A DNA stretch of 64,000 nucleotides from Pseudoxanthomonas gei (GTDB lineage Bacteria; Pseudomonadota; Gammaproteobacteria; Xanthomonadales; Xanthomonadaceae), in assembly GCF_010119615.1 (NCBI RefSeq), contig NZ_QOVG01000004.1:248001-312000 (forward strand), written 5' to 3'. Below are positions 44,078 through 59,188 of the stretch, in pieces. The notes under the pieces are model-generated. The model was not told the DNA's origin. It was given only the letters and a program-made list of their open reading frames with translations, and searched no databases. The number at the start of each line of letters is the position of its first letter. Position 1 is the stretch's first letter. The position numbers and the translations under genes were made by a program.

Positions 44078-44094
44078 TGGTGCCGGAAATAGGA
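44078..44094. repeat. Distal att site (17-bp direct repeat)
   Basis: TGGTGCCGGAAATAGGA, identical to 59113-59129, which is the CCA end, discriminator, acceptor 3' strand and part of the T-arm of tRNA-Thr read on the minus strand. Flanking bases differ on both sides. Confidence 0.92.
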
Positions 44095-44177: not shown

Positions 44178-44188
44178 AAGGTCAAATC

Positions 44189-45667
44189 TTGAGCGCTGAT
44201 CGTCACCTGAAAAAACGCGGAGAAACTTACTTCGCACGTCTGCATGTTCCGCTGGGGGCACAGCGAGCAGTGGGCATGACCGAAAAGGTCAAATCACTGA
44301 AAACGAGGGACGTTGTAGAGGCGCGCAGGAGGCTGATTAAGGCGCTTGCTGTAATGCAGACGGAGATCGACGAAGCGCTGGCGTCACCTATCAAGGGTAA
44401 TGCTGAGGTGCTACTGCAGCAAGCGCAACAGCTACGCCAGCAGATGGAGCTGGGAGCTATCACGGCGCGTGAGGCTGAGGTCACGATGGACGCGGCGCTC
44501 GACCTCCTGCTGTTCAAGGAGGAGCGCCTGCGTGGTCTGGAGGAGACGACCGAAGAAGAGGTAACGACCGAGAAAGGCAACCTACAGACTGTGCAAAGTG
44601 GTGGTCACCCACCCCTATCTCCCGCGGATATCGCCACGATCCGCCGTTCGTTCGATGTTGTCGCAGGACGTAGGGAAACCGCGCTTGCGCTGTTGATGGA
44701 GGCGCACCTCGCAGAGTTGAAAAAGGACGGCGTGGTCCGAGCCTCCACGCGAATAGAGAAGGAACGCAGGATCGGAGACTTCGTCGTGTGGTTCGGTGGC
44801 AACCGAAGCTGGAAGGAAGTTCGGCGGAGCGTTGCAGTGGACTACCTCAAACACCTCAAGGGCAAGGAGATCGGGAAGAAAGGATCGGGAGAACGGCTAT
44901 CGCGTTCCTCTCTGGTCAAGTGGCTTTCAGACCTCCGGGTATTCTTCAAGTGGATCCTCGACCATGAGGATGCAGACACTCGACCGTTGAACCCCTTCCA
45001 CGAACTGCAACCGGCCAAGGATGTTCGCGGAAAGCTCCCCGCTCATCGCCCATGGAGAAACGAAGAGGTCGCAGCGATGCTTGAGGGTATCCCTGCGGGT
45101 GATCCTCTATGGCCCCTTACAGTGCTTGCAGCGTACTCGGGCGCACGCCTAGACGAACTGGCCTCGTTGAAAGTCTCCAACGTCGATGGCGATTCCTTCA
45201 TGGTCACTGAGGGTAAGCGGCAGGCGTCCGTGAGGCGTGTACCGGTGCATCCGATTGTGGCCCCCATGGTTGCGCGTCTGGTGGAGTCCTCTGCGGACGG
45301 CTATTTGATTCCGGGTCTACTGCCGGGCGGATACGACAACAAGCGGAGCCACCTGATTGGCAAGCGCTTTGGCTACCTCAAGGGAAAGCTGGAAATAGGA
45401 GACGAGAGGCTCGTCTTCCACTCGTTTCGGAACACCGTTGAATCTCAGATGCTTTCCCGTGGCGTTCCTCTGGAGCGGGCGCAGTTGATCGTCGGCCATG
45501 AAAATCTCGGATCGTCTACGCCCTATGTGGACAGGGGTAGCGTGCAGGACGTGGAGAACCATAAGGCGCTAGGGCTGATCTCCTACGGAAAAGTAGATTT
45601 CTACGTCTCCGAGGGTGGCGCGAAGGTGGCTGTAACGGTCAAGGCGAAGGCCCGAAAGCGGAAGTAG
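44189..45667 (+). CDS. Tyrosine-recombinase integrase of the island
   Basis: 492 residues with a TTG start at 44189 and GGAAGGT 9 bases upstream. The N-terminal MSADRHLKKRGETYFARLHVPLGAQRAVGMTEKVKSLKTRDVVEARRRL matches the usual start of this integrase type, so the internal ATG (MTEKV) is rejected. The region 160-260 is the SAM-like core-binding domain. Catalytic residues: Arg of YSGARLDELASL (about 317), HSFR (411-414), GH (about 436) and nucleophile Tyr of STPYVDRG (about 445). It integrates the element at the tRNA-Thr 3' end. Its position at the tRNA-distal end, reading inward, is unusual but known. The TTG start and nearby repeats may keep expression low. Confidence 0.94.
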   Translation: MSADRHLKKRGETYFARLHVPLGAQRAVGMTEKVKSLKTRDVVEARRRLIKALAVMQTEIDEALASPIKGNAEVLLQQAQQLRQQMELGAITAREAEVTMDAALDLLLFKEERLRGLEETTEEEVTTEKGNLQTVQSGGHPPLSPADIATIRRSFDVVAGRRETALALLMEAHLAELKKDGVVRASTRIEKERRIGDFVVWFGGNRSWKEVRRSVAVDYLKHLKGKEIGKKGSGERLSRSSLVKWLSDLRVFFKWILDHEDADTRPLNPFHELQPAKDVRGKLPAHRPWRNEEVAAMLEGIPAGDPLWPLTVLAAYSGARLDELASLKVSNVDGDSFMVTEGKRQASVRRVPVHPIVAPMVARLVESSADGYLIPGLLPGGYDNKRSHLIGKRFGYLKGKLEIGDERLVFHSFRNTVESQMLSRGVPLERAQLIVGHENLGSSTPYVDRGSVQDVENHKALGLISYGKVDFYVSEGGAKVAVTVKAKARKRK

Positions 45668-45787
45668 ATCCGCTACCGAATGGACATCCATTAGCAGGCA
45701 TTTTATTCACTGCATAAAGGTGCTTTGATACTCCCCACGGCCGCCCCTCACGTCAGCAGGGGATCACTTCAGGGGAGCCGAAACACC

Positions 45788-45895
45788 ATGCGCATCGAAC
45801 TTGAACTGTCCCGCTCTTCGCTCTGGATCAGCATCGGCAAGCGTCACCTATGGTGGTCTCTCGGCGACGGCCCGCAGCTGGGCCGGGAAGGTTAA
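45788..45895 (+). CDS. 35-residue small protein of unknown function
   Basis: The frame ATG-TAA encodes MRIELELSRSSLWISIGKRHLWWSLGDGPQLGREG in the order seen (written here in two parts: MRIELELSRSSLWISIGK and RHLWWSLGDGPQLGREG). A strong ribosome binding site AGGGGAG lies 10-12 bases upstream, and a strong terminator starts 7 bases after the stop. The alternating hydrophobic pattern and Trp-rich RHLWW suggest a short beta structure. There is no membrane helix and no known family was recognised. Compact gene architecture argues that it is real. It lies 120 bases downstream of the integrase. Confidence 0.65.
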   Translation: MRIELELSRSSLWISIGKRHLWWSLGDGPQLGREG

Positions 45896-45901
45896 AAAAA
45901 G

Positions 45902-45930
45902 ACCCCCTCGCGCTGAGGGGGTTTTGCTTT
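45902..45930. terminator. Bidirectional terminator
   Basis: 8-bp stem ACCCCCTC / GAGGGGGT with a 5-nt loop. It is flanked by seven A on the left (T-tract for the minus strand) and TTTTGCTTT on the right (plus strand). It serves the 35-residue gene from the left and the 192-residue gene from the right. Confidence 0.9.
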
Positions 45931-45936
45931 GTGGGA

Positions 45937-46515
45937 TCAATGCGGCACGTTCGCTGCGGCCTTCGCTTCTGCGGCCTCTTCTATGTCGGCGAGGAACTCC
46001 TGCAGGAAAGCTGTTCCTCTCGCCTTACGCTCTAGACGCTGCGCTTGATGTGCTGCCACCACTTCGGCGGGATCTAGACTAGGAAAACAGGAACGCGGGC
46101 GCGCCTTGCCAGCGCGGTGAGCGTGGATAGGCATGACGCATGGGCCGTTGTAGTCCGGATCCTTCTCGGGCAGCTTGGTATTCCTCAGGACTTCGATCCG
46201 CTCACGAAGGTCTGCGGTCTCCGAAATCCAGGCGGCGCATAGTTCGCATCCGGTCTCCGCTTCCCGCTTCGTACGGGCGATGCTCTTCAGCTTACCGTCC
46301 GCTTCGTCACTCAATAGCGGAGTGCCGGGGTACGCCATGCGGTAGGCGCCACTCTTGTCAGCGTGCAGGGCATCCAATCGGAACAGGAAGGCTTCCAGTC
46401 CCTGCTTTGCGCGGCGCAGTCGAGAGATGGTCTTGCGGCGTTCCAGTGCGGCGGGGTCGGTGGCCACAGGCGTGGCGGGTTTGATAGTGGTTCGGCAGGC
46501 GAGAGGCTTGCTCAT
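45937..46515 (-). CDS. Hypothetical island protein
   Basis: 192 residues from ATG 46515 (MSKPLACRTTIKPATPVATDPAALERRKTISRLRR), with AAGGAGAG 7 bases upstream. Charged and mostly helical; the segment 25-100 (RRAKQGLEAFLFRLDALHADKSG...KSIARTKREAETGCELCAAWISETADLRERIEVLR) could form a coiled coil. It contains a CELC pair. The C-terminal tail is Ala/Glu-rich. No known family was recognised, and there is no membrane segment. It is the last of a leftward run of small genes on the island and is followed by a terminator. Confidence 0.7.
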   Translation of the reverse strand: MSKPLACRTTIKPATPVATDPAALERRKTISRLRRAKQGLEAFLFRLDALHADKSGAYRMAYPGTPLLSDEADGKLKSIARTKREAETGCELCAAWISETADLRERIEVLRNTKLPEKDPDYNGPCVMPIHAHRAGKARPRSCFPSLDPAEVVAAHQAQRLERKARGTAFLQEFLADIEEAAEAKAAANVPH

Positions 46516-46571
46516 GATTTCTCTCCTTGGAGATGGGTTCGATTGAATGTGTCTAGGACACGCTGAGAAGC

Positions 46572-46641
46572 ACACCTCACGGGATCCGGAGGTATTCCAG
46601 GACGGTGGCAAGGGCATACCCCTAGTTGCCCCGTGAGGTGT
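46572..46641. repeat. 12-bp perfect inverted repeat in a small-gene spacer
   Basis: ACACCTCACGGG (46572-46583) and CCCGTGAGGTGT (46630-46641) flank a 46-bp spacer between two minus-strand genes. The core TGAGGTG recurs in several other spacers of the same cluster. Confidence 0.75.
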
Positions 46642-46668
46642 TACTCCCAGAGGCCTTCTAGGCCAATG

Positions 46669-46950
46669 TCAGACACCGCAGACCTTCGCCCGTGAACTGC
46701 CTTGCTTGGAGGCGCGCGCCAGCACTGTGCGGAGGTAGTCGCCTCCCTCACTGCCGGTCAGGACAAGACGGAGGGACTCATCCACTGCAGGGCGCAGGTA
46801 GGCAGGCACTGCCCCATCCACCTTCACTGCTTCCCGAAGGTACAGACAGGACGGCTCGCGGTAGAGCGTGGTGGTATGAGATCGATCAGGATCCAGCGGG
46901 CAATACGGTGCGCTGCAGGTAGCGAACTTGGGGCATCCTTGCGGTGACAT
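46669..46950 (-). CDS. Small Cys-containing hypothetical protein
   Basis: 93 residues (MSPQGCPKFATCSAPYCPLDPDRSHTTTLYREPSCLYLREAVKVDG...). Four Cys in the first 35 residues (C6, C12, C17 and C35) could bind metal. The C-terminal half is helical (LRPAVDESLRLVLTGSEGGDYLRTVLARASKQG). A GGAG site precedes the ATG, and the stop of the next upstream gene is 2 bases away, so the two are translationally linked. Function unknown. Confidence 0.65.
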   Translation of the reverse strand: MSPQGCPKFATCSAPYCPLDPDRSHTTTLYREPSCLYLREAVKVDGAVPAYLRPAVDESLRLVLTGSEGGDYLRTVLARASKQGSSRAKVCGV

Positions 46951-46952
46951 GA

Positions 46953-47174
46953 TCAGTGGCTCCGCGAATCGCCGGATGGCTTGGCGAAGGGGTGCGACTT
47001 GATCAGTGCATCCAGTGCCATGGCGAGCGTTACTCGCCTACCGGTCTCCGTGGCGATCTTTGCCCGGAAGGCGCGGATGGTCAGCAGGGCGAACAGGGTG
47101 AACGTGAGGTCCATTCGCTGCAGCTGCTCGGGCGGTGCGTTGCGGGGGCTGTGATAGGTGGGCTGTGTTTCCAT
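46953..47174 (-). CDS. Small hypothetical protein
   Basis: 73 residues (METQPTYHSPRNAPPEQLQRMDLTFTLFALLTIRAFRAKIATETGRRVTLAMALDALIKSHPFAKPSGDSRSH). The helical central part (ALLTIRAFRAKIA...VTLAMALDALIKSHP) resembles ribbon-helix-helix or small DNA-binding accessory proteins only in a general way. It sits 2 bases upstream of the Cys-containing gene, in the same operon. Its start lies 19 bases from a hairpin. Function unknown. Confidence 0.6.
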   Translation of the reverse strand: METQPTYHSPRNAPPEQLQRMDLTFTLFALLTIRAFRAKIATETGRRVTLAMALDALIKSHPFAKPSGDSRSH

Positions 47175-47192
47175 GATTGCTCCAGAAATGAG

Positions 47193-47214
47193 AAGGCCTC
47201 CGCGAGGAGGCCTT
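47193..47214. terminator. Hairpin between small island genes
   Basis: 9-bp perfect stem AAGGCCTCC / GGAGGCCTT with a GCGA loop, in the 67-bp gap after the 180-residue gene on the minus strand. A short T-run (TTCTCATTTC) follows on the minus strand. Confidence 0.75.
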
Positions 47215-47241
47215 GGGGTGTGACGTGAGGTAGTGGTGAGG

Positions 47242-47784
47242 TCAGCCGCTCACGCCAGCGCGGGCGGCGATCTGCTTCGCTCGCCGGTCGACCTCTGCCT
47301 GTTCGATCAGCTTCTGCGCCTGAGCCTGAGCGGCTTGTTCGATTCGCGCGCTGGTTGCCGCGCGCGTCTTCTTCGCTTCGGCCTGCATGCGCTCTGCTTG
47401 TGCGCGGACCTTCTGCGCTTGGATCAGGGCATGGCGGCGGTTACCGTACTTGTAGACCATCAGCTCTCGCTCTCGGCCCGTGTACCGCAGAATCGCGTTC
47501 CCTTCCTTGTCGTAGCCGCTGAAGTCTTCCAACTTCGCATTGAGCTGCTGCAGCTCTCGCTCCAAGCCTTCAGTAAGGCTCTCGGGGCAGACGGTCAGCA
47601 TGTAGGCCTCAAACTCTGCCTCTGCAGTCGGAGACTGGTCATTGCTGGTCCGGACCTTCAGGATCCCTTGGGAACCGTCTGGGTAAAACGCAAGCACTTC
47701 GGTCTCGCTTACGTTTTCCGAAACGCTCACATTGCCGGGACGCGGGGTGACCACGATGCCGCCGTTTGGGGTGTTGTTGCTCAT
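47242..47784 (-). CDS. Hypothetical protein with C-terminal coiled coil
   Basis: 180 residues. The N-terminal 60 residues are beta-rich and polar (GIVVTPRPGNVSVSENVSETEVLAFYPDGSQGILKVRTS). The middle is GLERELQQLNAKLEDFSGYDKEGNAILRYTGRERELMVYKYGNRRHALI. The C-terminal 60 residues are a long Ala/Gln/Arg helix (QAQKVRAQAERMQAEAKKTRAATSARIEQAAQAQAQKLIEQAEVDRRAKQIAAR), a predicted coiled coil. The Shine-Dalgarno AAGGAAAC lies 8 bases before the ATG. Not recognised; the coiled coil suggests oligomerisation. Confidence 0.7.
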   Translation of the reverse strand: MSNNTPNGGIVVTPRPGNVSVSENVSETEVLAFYPDGSQGILKVRTSNDQSPTAEAEFEAYMLTVCPESLTEGLERELQQLNAKLEDFSGYDKEGNAILRYTGRERELMVYKYGNRRHALIQAQKVRAQAERMQAEAKKTRAATSARIEQAAQAQAQKLIEQAEVDRRAKQIAARAGVSG

Positions 47785-47903
47785 GCGTTGTTTCCTTTAT
47801 TGCTGCGCCCATAGGAAAGTGCCCGCTGCGGCGCAAGAACAGCGAACACGGTGAAACCTCCTGAAAGAACCAGGCGGCGGGTTGAGGTGGTGGTGAGGTG
47901 CGG

Positions 47904-48593
47904 CTAGAGCGGGTTGCGCTCCAGCGCTTCGCGGATGGTCATTGCTTCTGCAGCGCGCTCTGCGTCGATCTGCTCAACACGATTCCAGAACAGAATGGCT
48001 AGGCCTCCGATCTTGGAGGCCAGTGCACGCCCGACCTCTTCGGCGAGGAGACCGGGCAGGCGTACCTGCTCCAGCTTGCCGCCGCTGGTCCGGTACCAAC
48101 CTAGCGGCACCGTGCGAAGCCAGCGCGAGCCAAGGCAGGTGAAGTGGACGGCATCATCTGTGAACACGTCCCGCACGCCGACATAGCGGAGACCGTACAC
48201 AGCGAGGATGTTGAGGAGCATCCCTCGCCCGGTCGCCCCTCCTTCGTTCAATCGTCGCCAGTGTTTTGCATACCGCTCGGGCACGGCGCCGGGACTTGCG
48301 ATCATCCGTTCCAAGGTCTGCTCTGCAGCGACGATGGCGGGATGCTCGCCTAGGCCATAGACGTCTAGCGCATAGGCGGCTCTGTCCCGATACGGATTGA
48401 TCTCCTGCACTCGGGGCAGGCGTCCCGTTGGGTTGCGGGTGCGGTAGAAGGCGCTGGCGTGTCGCAGGCAGTAGCGACTCATTGCGCGGCAGGTGCGGGA
48501 GCATCCATCGACCGCACATTCATGGCCCTCGTGTTTGTCGACTCTGGGAGCGCGTCCCGTCAATCGGGCAGCGCGCCGGGTGGCGTAGTCCAT
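47904..48593 (-). CDS. Hypothetical protein with N-terminal Cys/His cluster
   Basis: 229 residues. HECAVDGCSRTCRAMSRYCLRHASAFYRTRNPTGR (about 24-58) holds four Cys and two His, a possible zinc site like those of phage and plasmid DNA-binding proteins. The remainder is helical (YALDVYGLGEHPAIVAAEQTLERMI, GATGRGMLLNILAVYGLRYVGVRDVF, LAEEVGRALASKIGGLAILFWNRVEQID) with no recognised domain. AAGGA precedes the ATG. It is first in the leftward run of small island genes. Role unknown; regulation or replication of the island is a guess. Confidence 0.7.
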   Translation of the reverse strand: MDYATRRAARLTGRAPRVDKHEGHECAVDGCSRTCRAMSRYCLRHASAFYRTRNPTGRLPRVQEINPYRDRAAYALDVYGLGEHPAIVAAEQTLERMIASPGAVPERYAKHWRRLNEGGATGRGMLLNILAVYGLRYVGVRDVFTDDAVHFTCLGSRWLRTVPLGWYRTSGGKLEQVRLPGLLAEEVGRALASKIGGLAILFWNRVEQIDAERAAEAMTIREALERNPL

Positions 48594-49144
48594 AGGGGAT
48601 CCTTGGGGTGGTCTTGTGGCTTCACCTCATCCACGGCAAAGCGGCCCGGGAGGAGATCCAGGCGGAGGCGTGAGGTGGATTGGAGGTGCCCCTGCAGGGA
48701 GAAAAAAATCGGCAGGACGCAGAGGGGTAAAAAAAACTGGCAGGACGCAGGGAGAGACACTGCGGATCCTGAGGAGTCCTTAGGTGATCTTTGGGGGATA
48801 TCTATACCTAGTACCTAACAGAACACCTCAAATAGGAAACCCCACAGGGAAGCTTTAGGTACCACCTCAATACACCTTGAGGTAATCCTAAAGTTCTCCC
48901 CCTTACCCCCTCATGGGACAGAGGTCTCAGAGGTCTGTTCTCCGATGGTGCCCCCCTATCGATCTTCCGATGGTCAGCAGCAATCCGCAGGGGAGACCTG
49001 AGGAGTGCTTGGGTGCGGCTCTGCCTCACTGAAATCCACCCTTCGGCGACTCTGGTTCTCCGATGGTGGCCCCATACCTAATCGACACCTGCCGTATGGC
49101 TGGGCAGGTACAGAGGGAAGAGCGGGCGCAAACCGCGCAGACCC
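48594..49144. other. 551-bp non-coding island segment with repeats and a long palindrome
   Basis: No credible gene. It contains a tandem duplication (A7-rich run plus GGCAGGACGCAG at 48701-48722 and 48728-48750). It also contains a 41-bp interrupted palindrome at 48853-48893 (CTTTAGG...ACCTCAA / TTGAGGT...CCTAAAG) and several further ACCTCAA, CCTTAGGT and TACCTAAC motifs between 48775 and 48835. It is more AT-rich than its surroundings. It could be a promoter/operator region for the leftward cluster or a replication or maintenance site. Confidence 0.55.
48853..48893. repeat. 41-bp interrupted palindrome
   Basis: Outer arms CTTTAGG (48853-48859) and CCTAAAG (48887-48893), inner arms ACCTCAA (48864-48870) and TTGAGGT (48877-48883), with a 6-nt loop. 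Inner arms are the same TGAGGT core that recurs in spacers of the neighbouring gene cluster. Confidence 0.8.
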
Positions 49145-49819
49145 TCAGGCAGCGAGCCGGTCCAACAGGTTCCTAACGCTGCTCTTGTGCCACTGCTTGC
49201 CCTGCGGCGTTTCGATTCCCCGCGAGTTGAGCGCGTCCGCTATGCCTCCCAGACTGGTCACGCCTCCTGCCCTCAGGTCATCCACAATCGGCCCAAGGTC
49301 AGCCGCACGGGACTGTGCCCGGATCCTCACCGCAGCCACGGCTGCAGCATTGCCCTTCCCTGCCCTACGGAGCGCTGCGGCCCCGTTGGGGTTCCCTAGC
49401 CTCGTGCCTCGCACCTTCGCAGCAGCGAGCGCTTCCTTCGTACGCCGGGAAGTCGCGTCGCGCTCCCTTTGGGCGACGATGGCTAGGACGCCCACAGTGG
49501 TCTCATCGGCGTTCGGGAGATCGGCTGCGGTGAAGCGTGTCCCCGTCTTCTGCAGTGTCAGCAGGAAGGCAGCATCGCGGCTCAGGCGGTCCAGCTTCGC
49601 GATCACCAACGTGGCCCCAGTGACCTTGGCCAGCAGCAGCGCACGGGCCAGCTCTGGGCGGTCATCACGCTTGCCGCTCTCCACCTCAGTGAAGGAGTCC
49701 AGCACCCTGCCACCAGACTGGCGGGCGTAGGTCTCAACGGCTGTACGCTGCGCTTCCAATCCCAGGCCGGAGCGTCCCTGTCGCTCTGTGGAAACACGGT
49801 AGTAGGCGACAAGCTTCAT
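49145..49819 (-). CDS. Serine recombinase (resolvase/invertase family)
   Basis: 224 residues from ATG 49819, with GGGGAG 8 bases upstream; the frame extends six codons further but lacks a better start. The N-terminal catalytic domain is MKLVAYYRVSTERQGRSGLGLEAQR (nucleophile Ser10), followed by DRPELARALLLAKVTGATLVIAKLDRLSRDAAFLLTL and IVAQRERDATSRRTKEALAAAKVRGTRLGNP. The C-terminal helix-turn-helix is LGGIADALNSRGIETPQGKQWHKSSVRNLLDRL. It recombines short DNA sites, as a resolvase, invertase or island-stabilising function. An inverted repeat with TGTACC cores lies directly upstream. Confidence 0.9.
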   Translation of the reverse strand: MKLVAYYRVSTERQGRSGLGLEAQRTAVETYARQSGGRVLDSFTEVESGKRDDRPELARALLLAKVTGATLVIAKLDRLSRDAAFLLTLQKTGTRFTAADLPNADETTVGVLAIVAQRERDATSRRTKEALAAAKVRGTRLGNPNGAAALRRAGKGNAAAVAAVRIRAQSRAADLGPIVDDLRAGGVTSLGGIADALNSRGIETPQGKQWHKSSVRNLLDRLAA

Positions 49820-49820
49820 G

Positions 49821-49860
49821 GGTACAACTCCCCGCAACGGACGTTAGCCCGTTTTGTACC
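49821..49860. repeat. Inverted repeat upstream of the serine recombinase gene
   Basis: GGTACAA (49821-49827) and TTGTACC (49854-49860), 26 bases apart, begin one base upstream of the recombinase ATG. It may be an operator or a recombination half-site pair. The remaining bases to 50106 hold no supported gene. Confidence 0.55.
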
Positions 49861-50106
49861 ACCAGCCAAGCTAGTGGTCAACGGGCGCTGGAGGACAACA
49901 GCCTCAAGGCATTGCGGCGCATCCTGGGCGACTGGCAGTGTCAAACGGCTAACCGGTAGACGACGCAGCAAGGGCCTCGATATAGCCTTGGTGACGACTC
50001 TAGGGGGCGCCCGGGGGAATCTGGGAACGCCTGCTCTTATCGAACCCCTTCACATTTTTTCGCAAAAACGGCTATCACGCGCCCACAATCTTTGAGCAAA
50101 CTTTGC

Positions 50107-51546
50107 TTACGCGGTCACCGGCAAGGCAGCCGACAGCTGCAACCGGTTCCAAATGCTCCCTACCTCAGCGATCACTGGCGCTTCAAGGTTCCAAGCCAAC
50201 AAGGTGACAATCACTTGAGACTCGCTGACCTCAATCGTCCTCGATAAATCTGGCACGCTCTGCAAAGCTGGATATACAAGTGCAGTCACACATCCAAGAA
50301 CTGGTTTCCTATTCGCTCTTGCCCTATGGATCACCTCAAGACCATATGCTGTCGCTTGATACATATCCTCAGGCCGCAACCTGACAGTCCTTGTATCGGT
50401 AATAGAAACGAGATCATCAGCTTCGGAGGAGCCGTAGAGGAGACGTTTCCATTTCGTGTCAATCACTACCGGGTAACGAGTCTCATCGCCCGGCACCCAT
50501 ACGTCAGGAATCATGCGGGTTGATCTAATAAGACGACGATCCGGCGGGCAGTCTTTCGGCGTAGATAGGGTGATTATCCACTCTTCATGCCGACTGGCGT
50601 CAGGCTTGATAGACCTCAGCGCATTGAAGAAGGCAAGCTCATAGACCTTGTTCATATCGAGCGTGATCGCAATAGATCTTATGTCGCCCGACTTGCTGCC
50701 GACATGTACAGAGCTGATTACCATCTCGGCCAACTTCAGGGCGTCCGCATAATGTCGCTGGTTGCCTGCTAACCGATTGCGCGTCGACGCGCTCAGATCA
50801 GGACGCTGAAGTTTTACTGCGTGAAACTGTGTGTCCAGCACCCGTAACCGCTCGGCCAGCACATTACCGTTCTTCAGCGTATGCGCAGCGAAGATGCCAA
50901 CATGATTTGCCCAACGCAGTACACGGTTAAGCGGATTATCAAGCTCTAGAGAGGGAAACTGACAAGGCACGACATGCGGCCTGCCCTTAGCAACATTCCT
51001 CAGCCATGGACCCACAAGAAGCCGACCCTTCACACGATTCTTCAGGTCAGCAGTCAGGCGCTGATGCGTGTTCCGCAATCCCCCCAACGCTAGGAATCGT
51101 CTTAGCGTTTCTTCGTAGGCCGCAATCGTCCATTCTAGGAGCGACTCCTCTAACGATTCCGCGACATACGCTCCACCAAGACTCCATCTTGGCAACATGC
51201 CGGCCAAGGCGCCAAGCTCAAGCATGCGAGCAGTTCCTACTTTCGGAACCACCCGCACGAGGCAGCGCGTCCCGTCCGCCGCGTTGATAGAAACGAAGCC
51301 CACGTTGCTTGATGTTTTTATTACGAGCTTAGTAGCGCCAGTTGCATCCTTACGAATATCGAGCCTCAGCAAATCAGCAACTAGGGCTGAAGAGAGAGCT
51401 TGCGAAACTGACTGGAGGTCGCTGAGCGCGCTCTCGTTTTCGATCGGGATCGACCTTGTCTCATGCTCAACGAGCTCAAGAACAATGCCCTTCTCGCCGT
51501 CTTTTTCCGAGGCACCAAGAGCAGTTAGAAGTGGATGCGGAACCAC
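50107..51546 (-). CDS. McrC-like restriction nuclease subunit (BsuMI/LlaJI R type)
   Basis: 479 residues, GTG start at 51546 one base after the stop of the upstream McrB-like gene. The N-terminal half is the McrC-type adaptor (LDIRKDATGATKLVIKTSSNVGFVSI...VRVVPKV, ALAGMLPRWSLGGAYVAESLEESLLEWTIAAYEETLRRFL). The middle is TADLKNRVKGRLLVGPWLRN and LDNPLNRVLRWANHV, a signature of PF10117 proteins. The C-terminal PD-(D/E)xK nuclease motif is MIPDVWVPGDETRYPVVIDTKWKRL (Asp about 345, Asp-Thr-Lys about 360-362), followed by DMYQATAYGLEV. McrC stimulates its partner NTPase and cuts DNA. Here it would be the nuclease of a modification-linked system, because two methyltransferases are upstream. Confidence 0.9.
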   Translation of the reverse strand: MVPHPLLTALGASEKDGEKGIVLELVEHETRSIPIENESALSDLQSVSQALSSALVADLLRLDIRKDATGATKLVIKTSSNVGFVSINAADGTRCLVRVVPKVGTARMLELGALAGMLPRWSLGGAYVAESLEESLLEWTIAAYEETLRRFLALGGLRNTHQRLTADLKNRVKGRLLVGPWLRNVAKGRPHVVPCQFPSLELDNPLNRVLRWANHVGIFAAHTLKNGNVLAERLRVLDTQFHAVKLQRPDLSASTRNRLAGNQRHYADALKLAEMVISSVHVGSKSGDIRSIAITLDMNKVYELAFFNALRSIKPDASRHEEWIITLSTPKDCPPDRRLIRSTRMIPDVWVPGDETRYPVVIDTKWKRLLYGSSEADDLVSITDTRTVRLRPEDMYQATAYGLEVIHRARANRKPVLGCVTALVYPALQSVPDLSRTIEVSESQVIVTLLAWNLEAPVIAEVGSIWNRLQLSAALPVTA

Positions 51547-51547
51547 G

Positions 51548-52909
51548 CTAACTTTCCAAGGCTTGTCTGATTTCTGATCTAAGCTTTGCCGCGGCTTCTC
51601 GCTGATTCAACATGTTCAAAGTTAGGTTACGGAAAGTGAAGGTTCCTTGCTCCCTCAGGCCCTCCTTCTCGTACTCCAGGAGTATCGGAAATACTTCAAA
51701 AGCAACTCTACGCGCGACCTTTGCCGCCCACTCTTCATCATCAGGCGACGGCGCCACAAAGAGTGCGGCGTGCCCTACCTTAAGTCTGTCTGCGATACCG
51801 GAGTTGATTTGTTGGAACAACTCCAAGGCCACCTGCTGCTTCGCCGAATCACCGGCATACCACGCCTCTAGATCCTCTGTTGAAGCGGGAACATCGATAA
51901 ACCGAAAGCGTCTCCGAATAGCGTAGTCGACAAGTGCTATAGATCGATCTGCAGTGTTCATTGTTCCAATGATCCAGAGGTTGGGAGGGACCGCAACCGT
52001 TGGACTTAATCCAGATCCTTGGTACTGCAAACGAACTTCCGTGCCTCGGTGACCCGGATCGATAGCGAAAACGAACTCGCCCAAAATGGCGGCGAGATTT
52101 CCTCTATTTATCTCGTCAAGTACCAGTATTACGGGGCCTTCTCGCAGCGCTGCTACCTGGCACATCTGTGGGAGAAGTCCATCTTCAACCCTAAGCTGAA
52201 TCTGGCCATCGTCTCTACTTACGGGAACCACCCGCCTCACCAGGTCATCGTAAGAGTATCCAGGATGAAGTTGTACAAACTCCCATACCACCGGCGGAGT
52301 GTTACAAGCATCTTTATCAGCCAGAAGAAGCTCCATGCTCCCTTTCTCTGACGCAATCCGACCGAGCCTGCATTCAGCCGATGTCATTCCACCCGACTCG
52401 GCCAACTGTCTAACTAGCTCAAGCGCAATGCTCGACTTGCCGGTTCCCGGCGGCCCCTGCAGCACGATGTTGGGCGCGTGCTTAAGACTTTCCTTCAGAA
52501 ACTCCACTCCGAGAGGCGGCGCGTTCCATTCGCGTCGCGTAAACGCAGGCCTCGGTACCAGATGGATGTTTGCGCCGAAGGATGTAGCCAAAGCTTTGGC
52601 CGTCAGACTGTCCTCATACCCGACAACATCTGCCCGCTGATCTGCACTATTTGGCTGGGCTACCACCAATACGGCCTCCGGGAATGGAAGCGCAAGAGTG
52701 AGGCGCCTAACAGCGCCGCTTGCCGCGATGTCCGGTCTATCTTGAGCTAAAAAAAGTCCAACCCGCGTTCGTGCCGCCGTAGGCTTGCAACTGCCTTCCC
52801 AGAGGCCGTTCGCCTTTATCTGCGTGCCAGGCCTACTCTTGACTGTTACTTCACCCAGCTCGACGCCGGCTGCATTAGCTACCGCCCTCTTGAGCTCAAG
52901 TTCGTTCAT
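51548..52909 (-). CDS. McrB-like AAA+ NTPase, second restriction subunit
   Basis: 453 residues. The N-terminal 130 residues show a probable DNA-recognition domain without a recognised name. The AAA+ module has Walker A LQGPPGTGKSSIA (about 148-158), Walker B VILVLDEINRGNLAAILGE (about 258), and the McrB hallmark GTMNTADRSIALVDYAIRRRFRF (about 315), whose NTAD replaces the classical GTP-specificity motif. FVQLHPGYSYDDLVRRV is another McrB-family segment. It probably forms hexamers, translocates DNA and drives McrC. Its ATG overlaps the stop of the upstream McrB-like gene (ATGA), and its own stop is one base before the McrC start. Confidence 0.92.
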   Translation of the reverse strand: MNELELKRAVANAAGVELGEVTVKSRPGTQIKANGLWEGSCKPTAARTRVGLFLAQDRPDIAASGAVRRLTLALPFPEAVLVVAQPNSADQRADVVGYEDSLTAKALATSFGANIHLVPRPAFTRREWNAPPLGVEFLKESLKHAPNIVLQGPPGTGKSSIALELVRQLAESGGMTSAECRLGRIASEKGSMELLLADKDACNTPPVVWEFVQLHPGYSYDDLVRRVVPVSRDDGQIQLRVEDGLLPQMCQVAALREGPVILVLDEINRGNLAAILGEFVFAIDPGHRGTEVRLQYQGSGLSPTVAVPPNLWIIGTMNTADRSIALVDYAIRRRFRFIDVPASTEDLEAWYAGDSAKQQVALELFQQINSGIADRLKVGHAALFVAPSPDDEEWAAKVARRVAFEVFPILLEYEKEGLREQGTFTFRNLTLNMLNQREAAAKLRSEIRQALES

Positions 52910-54411
52910 GAGCCGCTCTCATCACAGAGCCACGTCGTAAGCGAGTCCCTGACCGCATTCACTGGTGAAGCCAAAAGATCCATTTCGCCACTCTCGACAC
53001 CTACTGTAACGTTGCCCAAGGCCATTCCTTCCTCTCTATACTCCTCAAGCAAGGGCCGCAGGTTGTTCACGAGCAGCGACGCGAAGCGCTCACCCCATTC
53101 GGAGACCGACAGCTTCTCTTGATCGGGGACTAGAAAGTAAGACTGTCCAGGCTGAAAATCTTCCTGCTTTACCGATTCCATAACCGCGTCGAAAACCTCC
53201 GCTGCCTTCGCAGCCCTATGAGGAGTCGCACTATAGTGTTCAAGCACAGCATCTCGAGAAGGTTGCATACGCAGGAATCTAAACCGGCGACGCACCGCGA
53301 AGTCGAGCATCGCTATTGATCTATCTGCGGTATTCATCGTACCCAAGATCAAGAGATTTGCAGGGACACTCAAGCTGTCGGTTCCACCACTTGGCGCTTT
53401 GTACTGAAGTCGAACTTCCTCGTCTCTATGCGCCGGATCAATGGCGAAAATAGTCTCACCGAGTACGGCGGAAAGATTGGCCCTATTTATCTCGTCAATA
53501 ATAAGCAGCGTCGGCTTGCCTTCGCGGATGGCGGCGACCTTACATATCTGAGGAAGAATGCCGTCGACGCTCTTGAGGGCGAAACCCGGCACATCAGGGT
53601 CTGTTCTCATTCCGCGAACAAACTCTTCGTACCCGAAAGATGGATGCAGCTGAACAAAATCCCAGACAAGCGGCGCGGCTAGCAAGATGTCTACGCTGTC
53701 TTCAACAAGGTTCCCCGAGAGCAAGCGATCCAGACGCAGATCTCTTGCATTGCCTCCTGCTAAAACATTGGCTGCCAGAAAGGCGGCGCGAGTCTTTCCG
53801 GTCCCCGGGGGACCCTCCAGGACGACGTTACGAGCCTCAAGCAAATGCTCCACTATCTCTCGGGCTGAGAAGGGCGCGTCAGCCCCACCGTCCTCAGGAC
53901 TTCCCGTGGCCGGCTCTTCCGTAAACGAGGATGTAGCCCGAGTTGTGGCTGCTGGGTCGGGCACCTTTACTATCGGAAAGTTGCCTCCGGTCTCGCTCTT
54001 CAGCCGAGCTCCGATGGAAGAGTGATCATATTCGACTACTTCATGGATGGCCCACTGCCCACCACCGAGGTCCGCTCCAATGACAACAGCTTCAAATCCG
54101 CTGTCGGGTCTCGGGTTCAACCGGTCGCGAGCAGCTTGAATGACGATCTCAGCGTTACTCGACTGATCTAAGAACACCATTACGTCGTTCTTCTCGGAGA
54201 CGCTCTTCCCCTGCCAGAACTGATTATGCAACCCGTTGTTCGTGAGCTTGGCTACATAAACCGATTTGGGCCGCTCACCGCCGACCAACTCATTTATAGC
54301 CTTAGATAGATCCGCCTTGGCTGAGCTCGACGCTGGACCGTCGCCCCCCTCAGCGTAAGCTGCGGCCTCGTCCCAAAACTTTGAGAGGGTTGTCTTGTTA
54401 GTTTCTGACAT
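52906..54411 (-). CDS. McrB-like AAA+ NTPase, first restriction subunit
   Basis: 501 residues from ATG 54411, with GGGG 8 bases upstream; a GTG one codon earlier is possible. The N-terminal region (1-170) differs from the second McrB-like protein and looks like a separate recognition module (VYVAKLTNNGLHNQFWQGKSVSEKNDVMVFLDQSSNAEIVIQAARDRL). The AAA+ core is similar: VVLEGPPGTGKTRAAFLAANVLAGG (about 200), FVQLHPSFGYEEFVRGMRTD, TLLIIDEINRANLSAVLGETIFAID and LGTMNTADRSIAMLDFAVRRRFRF (about 358). Two paralogous NTPases with different N-termini match the three-gene restriction set of BsuMI. It is separated from the methyltransferase genes by 108 bp, which may hold its own promoter. Confidence 0.92.
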   Translation of the reverse strand: MSETNKTTLSKFWDEAAAYAEGGDGPASSSAKADLSKAINELVGGERPKSVYVAKLTNNGLHNQFWQGKSVSEKNDVMVFLDQSSNAEIVIQAARDRLNPRPDSGFEAVVIGADLGGGQWAIHEVVEYDHSSIGARLKSETGGNFPIVKVPDPAATTRATSSFTEEPATGSPEDGGADAPFSAREIVEHLLEARNVVLEGPPGTGKTRAAFLAANVLAGGNARDLRLDRLLSGNLVEDSVDILLAAPLVWDFVQLHPSFGYEEFVRGMRTDPDVPGFALKSVDGILPQICKVAAIREGKPTLLIIDEINRANLSAVLGETIFAIDPAHRDEEVRLQYKAPSGGTDSLSVPANLLILGTMNTADRSIAMLDFAVRRRFRFLRMQPSRDAVLEHYSATPHRAAKAAEVFDAVMESVKQEDFQPGQSYFLVPDQEKLSVSEWGERFASLLVNNLRPLLEEYREEGMALGNVTVGVESGEMDLLASPVNAVRDSLTTWLCDESGS

Positions 54412-54519
54412 CACTTTAGCCCCGTGTGAGCACAGAGCATAAAGCTTTATCTCTCCAAGGTTTCGATGAGGCCCGCGCCCCGAATGAAAGGTGGCCGGTG
54501 TTGCATACGCATCAATCAG

Positions 54520-55683
54520 TTAGGAAGCAGCGACAAGCCTTGCGTCCTCAATATAGGCAGCCATGCTCGGCAGGAAGCCATCTGCAAACCTAATCGCTGT
54601 ACTTTCTTGTGCTCGTTGATAAAAGCCTGAGGCAGCGCGCAGCGATAGGGGCTTCAATGGGTCCTGGAGAAAAGCAGCCAGCCGAGGCGCCGGTGCCTGT
54701 ATTGCCCAAGTTGAGACATCGACAGAATAACGTTGACCGCTAAGTCCGTAAGCGGCTTTAGGGAGCCTTGCAGTCTTCGCTATCCGATGCACCGGCGCCC
54801 CCAGCCCCTTAGGAGCTTCTATCTGCTCGGCTACCCAGTCAACCATAGGTACGCAGATGGTGTTCCCAACAAGTTTCCATCTAGCTCCAGCCCTAGACGA
54901 CTGCTTGATGGCAGGCTCAGTCCAGCCCGCTGGAAACCCGAACATCCGCTCGGCATCCAATATCGAAGGCGTGCCGAACTGTCCTGTCGAGGGAACCCAT
55001 ATCGCGGGAGGAGATGGTATCCCAAGGGCGGACCCGCCCTTGATGGTTGGGACCGCATCTTTGACCCAGCCAAGCCCTCTCTTGCCTTCCGTCCAGTAAA
55101 ACCCGTACGAGCTCTTTTCATCCACAAAGCCGACAGCGTCGTCAACATTAGGAATCACGTAACCGGTTGGGAAGAGAACTTGCGACGGATCCTCCTCAAG
55201 AGACAAAAGGATAACTACACGCTCGCGCCTTTGCGGCAATCCGAAGCTTCTAGCATCCAAGACTCTGTAGGCCCAGTTGTAACCTAGAGCCTCAGCCTGC
55301 TTGATGACATGCTCCATCGCACGTCCTTGCTTTAGTTTCAGCATGTAAGAGACATTCTCAAGGATCACCCACTTCGGCTTGCGCTTCTCAGCGGCAATCA
55401 ACCGGAATATCTCGTCCACTAGTCCAGACCTTGCTCCTCTGATACCTACCTTCTCGCCGGCCTGACTCAGATCTTGACAGGGGAACCCCGCAGTTAGTAT
55501 TTCGGCACCTTGGAGACCTTTCAACTTCTGAATGTCCCCAGAAATCGGAACATTGGGGAAGCGGAAGCGAAGCACTTCCTGCGCAACCGGATCAATGTCA
55601 CACAGGCCGACGCATTCAACACCGCGACGCGAGAAGGCGAGCTCAAAGCCACCGATCCCGCTGAATAGTCCCATTACTTTCAA
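54520..55683 (-). CDS. DNA (cytosine-5) methyltransferase, second of the pair
   Basis: 387 residues. m5C methyltransferase motifs in order: I VMGLFSGIGGFELAF, IV EILTAGFPCQDLSQAG (catalytic Cys about 70), VI PKWVILENV, VIII LDARSFGLPQRRERVVIL, then a variable target-recognition region and a motif X segment GARWKLVGNTICVPMVDWVAEQI. An extra C-terminal part of about 110 residues follows motif X. It overlaps the upstream methyltransferase by 4 bases (ATGA). With its partner it would protect both strands or both hemimethylated forms of the recognition site. The sequence specificity cannot be read from the protein. Confidence 0.95.
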   Translation of the reverse strand: MKVMGLFSGIGGFELAFSRRGVECVGLCDIDPVAQEVLRFRFPNVPISGDIQKLKGLQGAEILTAGFPCQDLSQAGEKVGIRGARSGLVDEIFRLIAAEKRKPKWVILENVSYMLKLKQGRAMEHVIKQAEALGYNWAYRVLDARSFGLPQRRERVVILLSLEEDPSQVLFPTGYVIPNVDDAVGFVDEKSSYGFYWTEGKRGLGWVKDAVPTIKGGSALGIPSPPAIWVPSTGQFGTPSILDAERMFGFPAGWTEPAIKQSSRAGARWKLVGNTICVPMVDWVAEQIEAPKGLGAPVHRIAKTARLPKAAYGLSGQRYSVDVSTWAIQAPAPRLAAFLQDPLKPLSLRAASGFYQRAQESTAIRFADGFLPSMAAYIEDARLVAAS

Positions 55684-57164
55684 AGAAGTACTCCCTGTAA
55701 AGCCGCACCTAGCACGATTGCTTGGCTCAGCTTCGGCGGAGCGGCGTTACCGATAATCTGCTGCATAGCTCTACGTCCTGTCACAGTAGGGAAATCGAAA
55801 AAATCTGGTACGAACTGGAGGCGACAAGCTTCATGAGGAGTCAGGGTTCGCCGCTCAAGTGGGTGAACAAACCGTCCTTGGCCAGTTGATCCGAAGCCAC
55901 CCGTTATCGTGGGAGCTGGCTTGTCCCAGCGCATCCTGCCGTACACAGATACATAGCTATGCGTCTTGTCTCGGTGGCAAGGTGGGCGCTCAGCGTTCGG
56001 AAGTTCGAAAAGCCCGTTCTCAAAAAGAAAATCAATGCGCCTTCGATTCTCCGCAGAATGAGATGCCGACGATTCGTAAGTAACGGCCTCGTTATACGAG
56101 GCTTGCAGGTCTGCTAGTGCCCACTCTACCGGGCGCACTTCACTAGCCTGCGCCGCTAACGCCTGCTCAATGTCGAAAGCGCCTCTCCTGGAAGCGACAA
56201 GAACGAACCGCTTTCTCGCTTGGGGCACTCCCAGCCTTCGTAAGTCCACAAGAGAAGTACTCACTTCATATCCAAGACGTGTCAGCGCTTCCGATGTTCG
56301 GCTCACAACTCCTTGCCGATCATGCACTACGCCAGGAACGTTCTCCACGATCACGAAAGTCGGCTGCAGGAGTTCCGAAAGGCGCACAGTCGAGAAGTAA
56401 AGATTGTTCTTGGGGTCCTCGCGCCGAGTGTGATTGTTGAGGTCGCTATGGCCTTGGCAAGGAGGTCCCGCCACCAGAACGTCAAGACCTCCCCCTATGG
56501 ACCTCAAAAAGGCTTTCTCTTCCCTTGTTTCTGCCGCGCCTACTGTTCCGTTGGCTATTGCTATCACGTCTTCGTGGAGGGCCACCGAAGTAGGAAAGTT
56601 GTGGCGAAACGTAGCGATCGCGTCACCATCGAAATCCAAGCCGAATGCATGAACTGGAACAAGTCCAGCCGCGCGGAGACCCTCATCAACACCGAGCGAA
56701 AAGATTCCGCCCCCGCTGAACGCATCACCTACCCGCACTCGCCGCCCGAGCGATGCTGGCTCCGGCAGTCTCTTAGACCGAAGCCAGTCAAGCTCGTAGT
56801 GCTGGGCTCCGTAGTCCTTAACGCGCCTTCGGGACTCAACCTGTGAGACGACTGGGCGACCATCGGGAAATAAGACTGTCCTTATCCCCTTTCCCGCCTG
56901 CCAGTGGTATGAAATGGGATTCACGTACTCTTCGCCTGCACCCTTTACTGCAACTTGGGGAGCCACGGAAGATGCGGCAACCAGCTTGTTGATCTCACTA
57001 AGACTGAAAAGCCGGTATCCGTTGATCGGATGGCGAACAGCATTGAGACGACCTTGGGCGACCCAGTTCCTGATGGTCTGGGCGGTGACGCCCAAAATAG
57101 AAGCAGCTGCCCCGATTCGGACTGCCTGTCCCAACTTGTCCTGAGAAATTCTAGCTTCAATCAT
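55680..57164 (-). CDS. DNA (cytosine-5) methyltransferase with N-terminal MerR-like HTH
   Basis: 494 residues. Residues 14-62 (AVRIGAAASILGVTAQTIRNWVAQGRLNAVRHPINGYRLFSLSEINKLV) form a MerR/excisionase-like winged helix-turn-helix. A linker of about 85 residues follows. The methyltransferase domain has motif I VGDAFSGGGIFSLGVDEGL, IV VLVAGPPCQGHSDLNNH (Cys about 233), VI TFVIVENVPGVV, VIII DLRRLGVPQARKRFVLVAS, the TRD with GFGSTGQGRFVHP, and X QIIGNAAPPKLSQAIV. It is the first gene of the restriction-modification operon. The HTH is probably a self-repressor or controller, since three 10-bp direct repeats lie 5 bases upstream of the ATG. Confidence 0.93.
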   Translation of the reverse strand: MIEARISQDKLGQAVRIGAAASILGVTAQTIRNWVAQGRLNAVRHPINGYRLFSLSEINKLVAASSVAPQVAVKGAGEEYVNPISYHWQAGKGIRTVLFPDGRPVVSQVESRRRVKDYGAQHYELDWLRSKRLPEPASLGRRVRVGDAFSGGGIFSLGVDEGLRAAGLVPVHAFGLDFDGDAIATFRHNFPTSVALHEDVIAIANGTVGAAETREEKAFLRSIGGGLDVLVAGPPCQGHSDLNNHTRREDPKNNLYFSTVRLSELLQPTFVIVENVPGVVHDRQGVVSRTSEALTRLGYEVSTSLVDLRRLGVPQARKRFVLVASRRGAFDIEQALAAQASEVRPVEWALADLQASYNEAVTYESSASHSAENRRRIDFLFENGLFELPNAERPPCHRDKTHSYVSVYGRMRWDKPAPTITGGFGSTGQGRFVHPLERRTLTPHEACRLQFVPDFFDFPTVTGRRAMQQIIGNAAPPKLSQAIVLGAALQGVLL

Positions 57165-57168
57165 GACC

Positions 57169-57198
57169 CTATTAAACCCTCAAAAACCTAAATAAACC
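57169..57198 (-). promoter_or_regulatory. Three 10-bp direct repeats before the methyltransferase operon
   Basis: On the minus strand: GGTTTATTTA, GGTTTTTGAG and GGTTTAATAG in exact 10-bp register, ending four bases before the ATG of the HTH-methyltransferase. One helical turn spacing places all three GGTTT cores on the same DNA face. They overlap the expected promoter or leader (TTTAAT is a possible -10). They are the likely operator of the fused HTH. Confidence 0.6.
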
Positions 57199-57796
57199 AG
57201 AACATCTTCTACATGGGCCGACCGCGTCTCGTCCAGCAGGCTACTTCTCTGCATTCTCACCAGCTGAGGCCGACCCGAACTCCCGCAACTGCTGCTACTT
57301 TTGAGCGTAAGGCGAGGACATTGCGTCACGCACGGCCAAGCTTCCCGAGGGGAAGTTTGGCGGCATCCATACACTTCAGGGATCAGGCCAGGGTAGGAAT
57401 GGAGGACCTTTGAGTGGGTGTGAAGGCCCGCGGGTTTACAACGTGCAGCGGCCTCGGTGACTCCAAGGCTAGACAGGTGCCTGCTGCCTACTGATCTGGC
57501 GGTCCCCGCCACTGCGTGCATCAGGTCGTTGCATCTTGAGCCAGTCGCGGCAGGCAGGGTCACCGGAGGCAGGGCCTAAAGTCTTCTCAAGTGTCGACCA
57601 CTAGGAGCGCCAAGCGGCGGAGGATGATGAAGTGCCTTGCGCGCTAGCGCTGCCATTGGCCTGGCGATGCCGACGGAGGAGATCAAAGGTGGAATCCGGG
57701 CGAAACATTAGGTGGTCTTGAGGTGGGGGCAAGGGGTATCTCGGAGCGTCACTTATCGATAGCCCTTCGGATTTTTTTCTATGAACGGCCAATGGA
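57199..57796. other. Intergenic stretch upstream of the methyltransferase operon
   Basis: About 600 bp between the restriction-modification operon and the membrane-protein gene. A 127-codon frame on the minus strand (57180-57563) has no ribosome binding site, skewed Ser/Cys/His-rich composition and no family similarity. No terminator or large repeat was seen. Confidence 0.45.
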
Positions 57797-58504
57797 TTAA
57801 GCGACTTTCAACCGTTCGACATGCTGATACAGCTCTGGCGGCCACACAGCACCATCATCACGGCTCTTCCTTAAGGCGTCCCACACGATGGTCCAGCTGA
57901 GCGCCATTGAATCCAAAGAGCCATAGGCCGCCAGCATAGAAGTCATGATTGCTAGCCTCCGCCGCTTCTTCCTCCATGAAACAAACTGACTGAGGATCGT
58001 TAGCACGATCCACCCTGCAGCGAGCCACGGCAGTTCAAAGATAAGTAGTGCAACCACGACCGCAAGCCATATGGACCAAGCCACGACGACGCCCGCGGCC
58101 TGAGCCAGCAAGATCTTCCAGCTGAACTTGCCACCAATCCAACGATCGGAGAAACCGAGTGCGACGGAAGTTGCCGAAACCTCGGCGTGTACCAAGAGAT
58201 TGGCTAGGAGCCAGTTGAAAGCAGGACAATGCAGCCACTGCATTTGATTGACGTACTGAGCCGTTGCGTTCTTCAGTTCGACCACAAAGTAACGATAAGA
58301 ATCTGCAGTTTGTACAACTGAGTTCTCCGAGATAGAGGACCAACTTTCTACAGCCTCACCGTTGCGGCTTACACAGTAGAAAACCGAGCGAATCCACTCC
58401 GCGCCCTCACTCTGGTAGTCGTCAAGCTGCTCCTCATCAGATGTCGCCTGCTTGGCAAGCTGCCTGACAAGCCCCAGAGCACCATTCAGTGATACCACCG
58501 TCAT
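57797..58504 (-). CDS. Hypothetical two-helix membrane protein
   Basis: 235 residues. The cytoplasmic N-terminal half (1-120) is soluble and helical (LGLVRQLAKQATSDEEQLDDYQSEGAEWIRSVFYCV...). A hydrophobic block at about 128-178 (ILLAQAAGVVVAWSIWLAVVVALLIFELPWLAAGWIVLTILSQFVSW) forms two membrane helices, followed by a basic stop (RKKRRRLAIM). A soluble C-terminal tail of about 50 residues ends the protein. No family was recognised. It is the gene nearest the tRNA end of the island, upstream of and in the same orientation as the restriction operon but about 600 bp away. Membrane proteins beside restriction systems are sometimes separate abortive-infection factors; here that is only a hypothesis. 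Confidence 0.65.
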   Translation of the reverse strand: MTVVSLNGALGLVRQLAKQATSDEEQLDDYQSEGAEWIRSVFYCVSRNGEAVESWSSISENSVVQTADSYRYFVVELKNATAQYVNQMQWLHCPAFNWLLANLLVHAEVSATSVALGFSDRWIGGKFSWKILLAQAAGVVVAWSIWLAVVVALLIFELPWLAAGWIVLTILSQFVSWRKKRRRLAIMTSMLAAYGSLDSMALSWTIVWDALRKSRDDGAVWPPELYQHVERLKVA

Positions 58505-58989
58505 CCTTGGACCCCACGCGGAAGGTGCGGCGAGAGTTCCTGTCCTCTCGCCGCGATTGCTTCAGTGGGTCAGGAGGAGCAGAACCGCGAGAATGAGTTC
58601 CCGAAGTTCCCTCAGGTCCAACTTGACCTTGATCTGGATTCGAAGCATGACGGTTATCCCGGCATGTGACGTCCCCAAGCGCTCAGGAACATCTGTGGAA
58701 GATGCCCTTAGTTATTTAACGTCGCTGTGCTACGACGTCACCGTTCGGGGCATGCTCCCTTCAGATGAGTTCCGGAGACCTGCTTCTCCTTGGCCTTGGT
58801 TCGGCTTACGCCCTTATCGTTGGCGGCACGGGTGCTTCCCCAAGGCTGGTCACTGCGTTTCCCCGTTGAGCAGCTTGGAGGCCACCCAGACCCTTTCCGG
58901 GGGTCTAGCCGTCGAGGCTCAGCCTCTCCGACGTTCCTTGACTCTACATGGACGTTACACGCCACGCGACCCTATACAGCCGCCACAGC
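58505..58989. other. Intergenic island end without a supported gene
   Basis: About 485 bp between the membrane-protein gene start and the substitute terminator near the tRNA. Open frames here lack ribosome binding sites and family similarity. It may contain a decayed gene or the promoter of the membrane protein. Confidence 0.45.
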
Positions 58990-59020
58990 AAAAAGCCCCG
59001 AGGGACACCCTTGAGGCTTT
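58990..59020 (-). terminator. Island-borne substitute terminator for tRNA-Thr
   Basis: On the minus strand: AAAGCCTCAAGGG / CCCTCGGGGCTTT, a 13-bp stem with one mismatch and a TGT loop, followed by TTTTTGC (T-run shared with the stem base). It lies 93 bases downstream of the tRNA-Thr 3' end and points in the same direction. Confidence 0.85.
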
Positions 59021-59037
59021 AAAAGTCTTCAAAATAT

Positions 59038-59059
59038 CTGTACCGGAATACTGTACCGG
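59038..59059 (+). promoter_or_regulatory. Paired CTGTACCGG repeats at the right end
   Basis: Two CTGTACCGG copies separated by AATA, 53 bases inside the tRNA-side att repeat and in the same orientation as the pair at 44156-44177. The symmetrical placement supports a role in integrase or excisionase binding. Confidence 0.75.
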
Positions 59060-59112
59060 TTTGGATCATTCAACCGTCCGTAAGTCATTGAATATAAAGA
59101 CAAACGTACAGT

Positions 59113-59188
59113 TGGTGCCGGAAATAGGAATCGAACCTACGACCTCATCATTACGAATGACGCGCTCTACCAACTGAGCTATTCCGGC
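59113..59188 (-). tRNA. tRNA-Thr(CGU)
   Basis: 76 nt including an encoded CCA. Acceptor stem GCCGGAA / TTCCGGC with discriminator A, D-arm GCTC...GAGC with AGTTGGTA loop, and anticodon stem CGTCA / TGATG with loop TTCGTAA (anticodon CGT, reads ACG). The T-arm is GTAGG-TTCGATT-CCTAT. All stems pair. Its 3' 17 bases serve as the island attachment site and are restored intact by the element. Confidence 0.97.

Follow-up and report, generated by a model that had tools for sequence, protein, structure and literature searches.

The stretch of Pseudoxanthomonas gei DNA analyzed here (64,000 nucleotides of contig NZ_QOVG01000004.1, hereafter the window, in whose coordinates all positions are given) carries, on the minus strand, an operon that probably constitutes a single restriction-modification system blocked by modification, to judge from its sequence. 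It consists of five intact open reading frames (ORFs) spanning 57164–50107 in the order M1, M2, McrB-1, McrB-2, and McrC. M1 (55680..57164, 494 amino acids) combines a MerR/HTH_17 N-terminus with a C5-cytosine methyltransferase (PF00145 3.2e-39, HTH_17 2.2e-8), and M2 (54520..55683, 387 amino acids) is a C5-cytosine methyltransferase as well (PF00145 6.7e-49; PADLOC MTase_II PDLC03324 1.1e-127). McrB-1 (52906..54414, 502 amino acids) has an N-terminal domain (residues ~30–160) followed by a McrB-type AAA+ motor (PF07728), and its paralog McrB-2 (51548..52909, 453 amino acids, 37% identity to McrB-1) has a homologous N-terminal domain and motor. The last gene codes for a McrC-type PD-(D/E)xK nuclease (50107..51546, 479 amino acids, PF10117 7.4e-27, above cut-off).

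The initial annotation had proposed this order on one strand and these families, and had named mutated catalytic residues as a point that would speak against them. The ORFs and the Pfam matches bear the proposal out, and the motifs looked for are present in all five proteins. Methyltransferase motifs I, IV, VI, VIII, and X are found in both M1 and M2; Walker A, Walker B, NxxD, and RRRF are intact in both McrBs; and McrC has the PD and DxK motifs (DTK in the window), which all 18 aligned McrC rows share. NxxD in its strict form occurs in 24 of 27 McrB-1 rows and in all nine McrB-2 rows, the N and the D themselves being invariant in the McrB-1 alignment, and the Walker B pattern holds in 26 of 27 and six of nine rows, respectively. 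The features that define membership of the McrBC superfamily, an AAA+ motor with Walker A/B and NxxD and a McrC-type nuclease, are present.

The genes are closely packed, if not entirely as first described. The two McrB genes do overlap by ATGA, and McrC, with a GTG start, does lie one base after McrB-2. The ATGA overlap given for the methyltransferase genes is instead TTGA, with a TTG start for M2, or a 5-base gap if M2 starts at the alternative ATG at 55674, and between M2 and McrB-1 there is a gap of 105 bases that the initial annotation does not mention. For McrB-1, the ATG at 54411 (the codon after the GTG at 54414) is the likely start, as it fits the ortholog better. M1 may truly start at TTG 57134 instead of ATG 57164, because the sequence preceding ATG 57164 is a box conserved upstream of M1 in Janthinobacterium sp. 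LM6 (locus L015). This box (TTGAGGGTTTAATAGGGT / TTGAKGGTTTAATAGGGT; 57166..57183, minus strand), known from these two loci only, abuts the annotated M1 ATG in the window and is a possible promoter or operator. Exact matches to it occur in two viral contigs (L105 and L106), whose retrieved stretches (7.7 and 9.6 kb) lack all five genes, and these matches were treated as chance occurrences.

A scan with the McrC alignment, taking one genome per species, gave 66 loci. In L015 the same five genes are found in the same order, and because a second genome shows this order the arrangement is more than chance. Three loci (L016, L017, and L062) have a single methyltransferase match beside one McrB and McrC. 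The remaining loci mostly have one McrB and one McrC without a match to M1 or M2, or (short contigs included) McrC or McrB alone; L038 and L075 have two McrB-like open frames each, which may be broken genes. M1 and McrB-1 are co-located in 18 cases including the window, i.e., on 17 further contigs (51 McrB-1 rows, 56 M1 rows), if contigs of equal size are taken as identical, which is likely but not proof; two of the M1 rows had been picked because they matched, and the count without them is 16. McrC and McrB-1 are co-located in 10 of the 19 McrC rows, in eight of which M1 is found too. The distances of M1 and McrB-1 correlate (r = 0.84, 19 pairs, p = 0.0001). Between the window and L015, the methyltransferases are better conserved (M1 67%, M2 73% identity) than the restriction proteins (47–58%). 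The initial annotation's operon of two 5-methylcytosine (m5C) methyltransferases and a McrBC-type machine is, by the order in L015 and the co-location, co-inherited.

The McrC profile matches none of the 36 other genomes of the genus and one of 24 genomes of the order, weakly. With query P0001, 10 of 398 genomes of the phylum match (the host genome being among the 398), nine of them at 23–30% identity. M1-like methyltransferases are common (query P0005, 105 of 369 genomes of the class), the best outside the host genome having 36% identity. The host genome has M1, M2, and a third m5C methyltransferase elsewhere, and a single PF10117 match. Among viral contigs, the search with McrC found no relative, the one with M1 found one weak relative (32%), and the one with McrB-1 found 13 loci with distant motors. 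Of seven plasmid records with McrC relatives, three were inspected; in each of these, one annotated AAA ATPase gene precedes the McrC-like gene, and in two there is an MT-A70 gene nearby.

The two McrBs are best read, from their sequences, as anciently diverged and intact paralogs. They share 37% identity over 422 columns, N-terminal domains included, and the profiles of these domains are homologous (hhalign probability 99.2%). A tree of 47 motor-domain rows places the McrB-1 group (19 rows) and the McrB-2 group (nine rows) on opposite sides of one branch with support 98/96, and the set holding both groups and two ungrouped rows has support 95/95. The rows were selected by likeness to McrB-1, the McrB-2 side takes in proteins without known neighbors, and the branch of R1.LlaJI is so long that its placement is unsure. 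Given this split, the pair in the window is not a recent duplication. In the literature searched, mostly open access and not extending to three papers that name McrB1 and McrB2 (on Geobacillus kaustophilus, Campylobacter coli, and mouse genes), no description of paired McrBs in one methyltransferase operon was recognized.

The N-terminal domain that the two paralogs share is the candidate reader of DNA. It has no convincing match among the Pfam families listed (25 of 34; 27 members of alignment A2), in tables that do not extend to the newer Pfam families listed with protein matches, PF28529 among them; PF06908 appears in McrB-1 at noise level (0.035). A PDB search with the domain gave two matches only, both at chance level (0.54 and 0.79). 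The N-terminus of E. coli McrB, which reads 5mC, scores 0.1% (McrB-1) and 0.0% (McrB-2) in hhalign, and residues 1–250 of R1.LlaJI score 0.2% and 0.1%, neither being above shuffles; by sequence, neither the 5mC reader of E. coli McrB nor a LlaJI-like (B3) reader is found. The same comparison gives 98.3% and 97.5% for cross-group members that the profile does not include. The hhalign targets are single sequences, and a remote kinship is compatible with these values. The AlphaFold model of McrB-1 (mean predicted local distance difference test score, pLDDT, 83.3; predicted template modeling score, pTM, 0.62) gives residues 4–151 the alpha/beta order helix-helix-strand-helix-strand-helix-strand-strand-helix-strand, with block pLDDT 58–90. 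The SRA, EVE, YTH, and B3 readers are beta-barrel folds. They are the readers named for McrB relatives (PMC12707154; the papers cited here by such accessions are drawn on in part), and with moderate confidence the modeled domain looks unlike them. The best 50 of 689 Foldseek matches to McrB-1 are all AAA+ proteins, with no relative of the N-terminal domain seen among them; aligned ranges are not printed for these matches.

The operon is best read as belonging to a separate methyltransferase-linked line of McrBC, a kind already in print (Bell et al. 2024), of which it would be a variant with two McrB paralogs. M1 and M2 would protect the sites of the host. Driven by GTP, McrB-1 and McrB-2 would assemble into AAA+ rings, either one that is mixed or one for each protein. 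Their N-terminal domains, diverged but related, would read unmodified DNA while the motors move the DNA; the McrC-type nuclease would dock on the McrB ring and cut, both motors presumably sharing one machine with the single McrC. Cleavage would be blocked by methylation, and the helix-turn-helix (HTH) of M1 may regulate the operon. The gene order shared with L015, the co-location of M1, McrB-1, and McrC, the correlated distances of M1 and McrB-1, and the better conservation of the methyltransferases count for a modification-blocked system, as does the lack of a match between the N-terminal domains and the 5mC reader of E. coli. A precedent is LlaJI, which restricts unmethylated DNA and requires both subunits for this, R1 binding its site, with no cleavage seen in vitro (PMC1459862). 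Furthermore, a nuclease that responds to 5mC in general would put the host at risk, because its genome encodes three m5C methyltransferases. Other observations weigh against a modification-blocked system: the motors and the nuclease resemble type IV McrBC more than LlaJI; the correlation of M1 and McrB-1 distances can be explained by shared ancestry without function; and no known relative of the N-terminal domain emerged from the searches, so that only the position of this domain suggests a role in reading DNA.

E. coli makes a short form of McrB that lacks the N-terminal domain. This form withdraws McrC from the active complex (PMC12707154), and by analogy only one of the McrBs in the window might read DNA, the other serving in ring assembly or as a regulator of dose. 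That McrB-2 is shorter (453 versus 502 amino acids) would suit such a division of labor. Its N-terminal domain is nevertheless retained, homologous to that of McrB-1 and 54% identical between the window and L015, as are all the motor motifs looked for, and we regard a single reader as doubtful.

McrBC is the textbook case of a nuclease directed at methylated DNA. An improbable alternative is that the operon encodes a type IV McrBC dependent on methylation, which cuts DNA with other marks and tolerates those made by M1 and M2, the latter forming, e.g., an epigenetic or addiction module of their own. The similarity of the motors and nuclease to E. coli McrBC, greater than to LlaJI, is what speaks for it. 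McrB-1 scores 139 bits to E. coli McrB versus 51.6 to R1.LlaJI, and McrB-2 scores 117 versus 65.1. A PDB sequence search with McrB-1 finds E. coli and Thermococcus McrB only (6hz4 McrB, 9.2e-31). For the nuclease the link is weaker: the McrC profile gives E. coli McrC a probability of 28% in hhalign (E = 6e-4) and R2.LlaJI 0.1%, and the NCBIfam model of E. coli McrC matches the window protein weakly (5.4e-11, 42 bits, far under the cut-off of 338). The McrC profile finds E. coli McrC in the PDB (4.2e-4 and 0.02, threshold E = 0.1), and it finds neither Thermococcus McrC nor YdjA, a weak discrimination. Among 14 control genomes, PF10117 matches only Methanosarcina acetivorans and PF09563 only B. 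subtilis; as the E. coli control (strain unstated, E. coli McrC itself being left out of the scan) has no PF10117 match, this label alone is no proof of kinship with E. coli. Type IV-like motors do not settle the substrate either, since its choice is expected to lie with the N-terminal domain, for which the N-termini of E. coli McrB and R1.LlaJI give no match. The linkage of the methyltransferases on many contigs, the existence of a methyltransferase-linked McrBC branch (PMC11090510), and the cutting of unmethylated DNA by LlaJI-type systems (PMC1459862) argue further against a type IV enzyme.

The initial annotation had regarded the operon as a new member of the group of BsuMI and LlaJI, and had set against this a closer alignment of the restriction proteins with type IV McrBC, which is what the bit scores of the motors give. 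Direct membership has in its favor that McrB-like and nuclease genes come after two m5C methyltransferase genes, and a distant relationship of fold with YdiS, the BsuMI protein with which the comparison was made (rather than with YdiO, YdiP, or YdiR), taken from its 343 amino acids to be chain B of the YDJA-YDIS entry. The proposed structural comparison finds YdiS as a distant fold relative at rank 22 (4.2e-12) of the Foldseek matches to McrB-1, outranked by E. coli McrB at the top (8.1e-21) and Thermococcus McrB, which together hold ranks 1–21. The nuclease is of another family (PF10117, as opposed to PF09563, RE_LlaJI, for R2.LlaJI) and has no sequence match to R2.LlaJI, and M1 and M2 are not sisters (28% identity over 187 amino acids), whereas the LlaJI methyltransferases are (51% over 378). 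Kinship with this group is not borne out, and direct membership is very improbable. Least probable of all is a silent or decaying passenger of the island described below, for which the lack of McrC matches in the other genomes of the genus might speak, but not the five intact ORFs and their motifs.

If the operon is indeed a modification-blocked system, one may tentatively, and at some distance from the data, go further: a line of McrBC might have turned from cutting modified to cutting unmodified DNA independently of LlaJI and BsuMI, its new reading domain being duplicated into two specialized motors that form a mixed ring, each checking the mark of one of the two unlike methyltransferases. 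If true, a second, separate line of McrBC with protective methyltransferases of its own would show that motor and nuclease can be given a new target through a change of reading domain. The paired McrBs would offer a natural example in which an AAA+ ring may be mixed, and their N-terminal domain would be a candidate new DNA-recognition domain.

The operon is carried by a mobile integrase island of ~15 kb (44078–59129). The tRNA-borne island of the initial annotation is confirmed and can be delimited: its target is a tRNA-Thr (CGT) gene (59113..59188, minus strand, tRNA match), whose 3′ end contains a 17-bp attachment repeat (TGGTGCCGGAAATAGGA; 59113..59129, plus strand) that recurs as an exact direct repeat at the far end (44078..44094, plus strand), next to a tyrosine integrase (PF00589 and DUF6538 by Pfam; 44189..45667, plus strand). 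An empty site occurs in a genome of the same genus (G749), where the end of the left flank (60 bases, 85% identity) directly adjoins the tRNA and the right flank (90% identity for 334 bases, up to the contig end), the two matches overlapping by exactly 17 bases. Only these 60 of the 1726 left-flank query bases are found there, other parts lying elsewhere in G749, so that the order is not kept beyond them to the left. In G754 and G760, too, the matches overlap by 17 bases according to their coordinates; the left flank is represented by ~50 bases, and the tRNA copy is separate from the remaining right flank. The guanine-plus-cytosine content is 0.53–0.57 over 50–59 kb, versus 0.63–0.69 in most of the first 42 kb.

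Five further ORFs of the island, between 45937 and 49730, have no Pfam family match. Between the tRNA and the operon there is a predicted protein of 235 amino acids with hydrophobic stretches (57797–58504, minus strand), to which Pfam, PADLOC, and NCBIfam assign no family, and at 58522–58599 (minus strand) a weak match to the small RNA CcsR1 (24 bits versus a gathering threshold of 65) that is probably due to chance. At 43147–43200 lies a short repeat resembling repetitive extragenic palindromes (REP), with many copies in the host genome and several relatives.

Among known systems, the type IV McrBC of E. coli K-12 shares the NxxD AAA+ motor and the McrC nuclease, and is the best match of the motors by both sequence and fold. 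It has, however, one McrB instead of two, a 5mC-reading N-terminus, and no methyltransferases of its own. LlaJI (L. lactis pNP40) resembles the operon in its organization, with two m5C methyltransferases, a McrB-like motor, and a nuclease in this order within one operon, and differs by its PF09563 nuclease, single McrB, sister methyltransferases, and an R1 N-terminus that does not match the domain of the window. BsuMI (B. subtilis) and LlaI have three restriction genes beside methyltransferase genes, and their AAA subunits have 343 and 337 amino acids, the former aligning over its full length to R1.LlaJI (PMC1459862). Given these lengths, the two subunits apparently lack a large N-terminal domain, unlike the McrBs of the window, and the B. 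subtilis control genome matches PF09563 and not PF10117; YdiS is a distant relative of the motors by fold. LlaI, BsuMI, and LlaJI had been grouped as McrBC-related type II systems by 2006–2008 (PMC1459862; PMC2614495). Bell et al. (2024; PMC11090510) announced methyltransferase-linked branches of McrBC, deferring the details to a later paper. Paired McrBs are not mentioned in the parts of that work drawn on here, but the linkage of NxxD McrB genes to predicted DNA methyltransferase genes that it describes is the arrangement found in the window.

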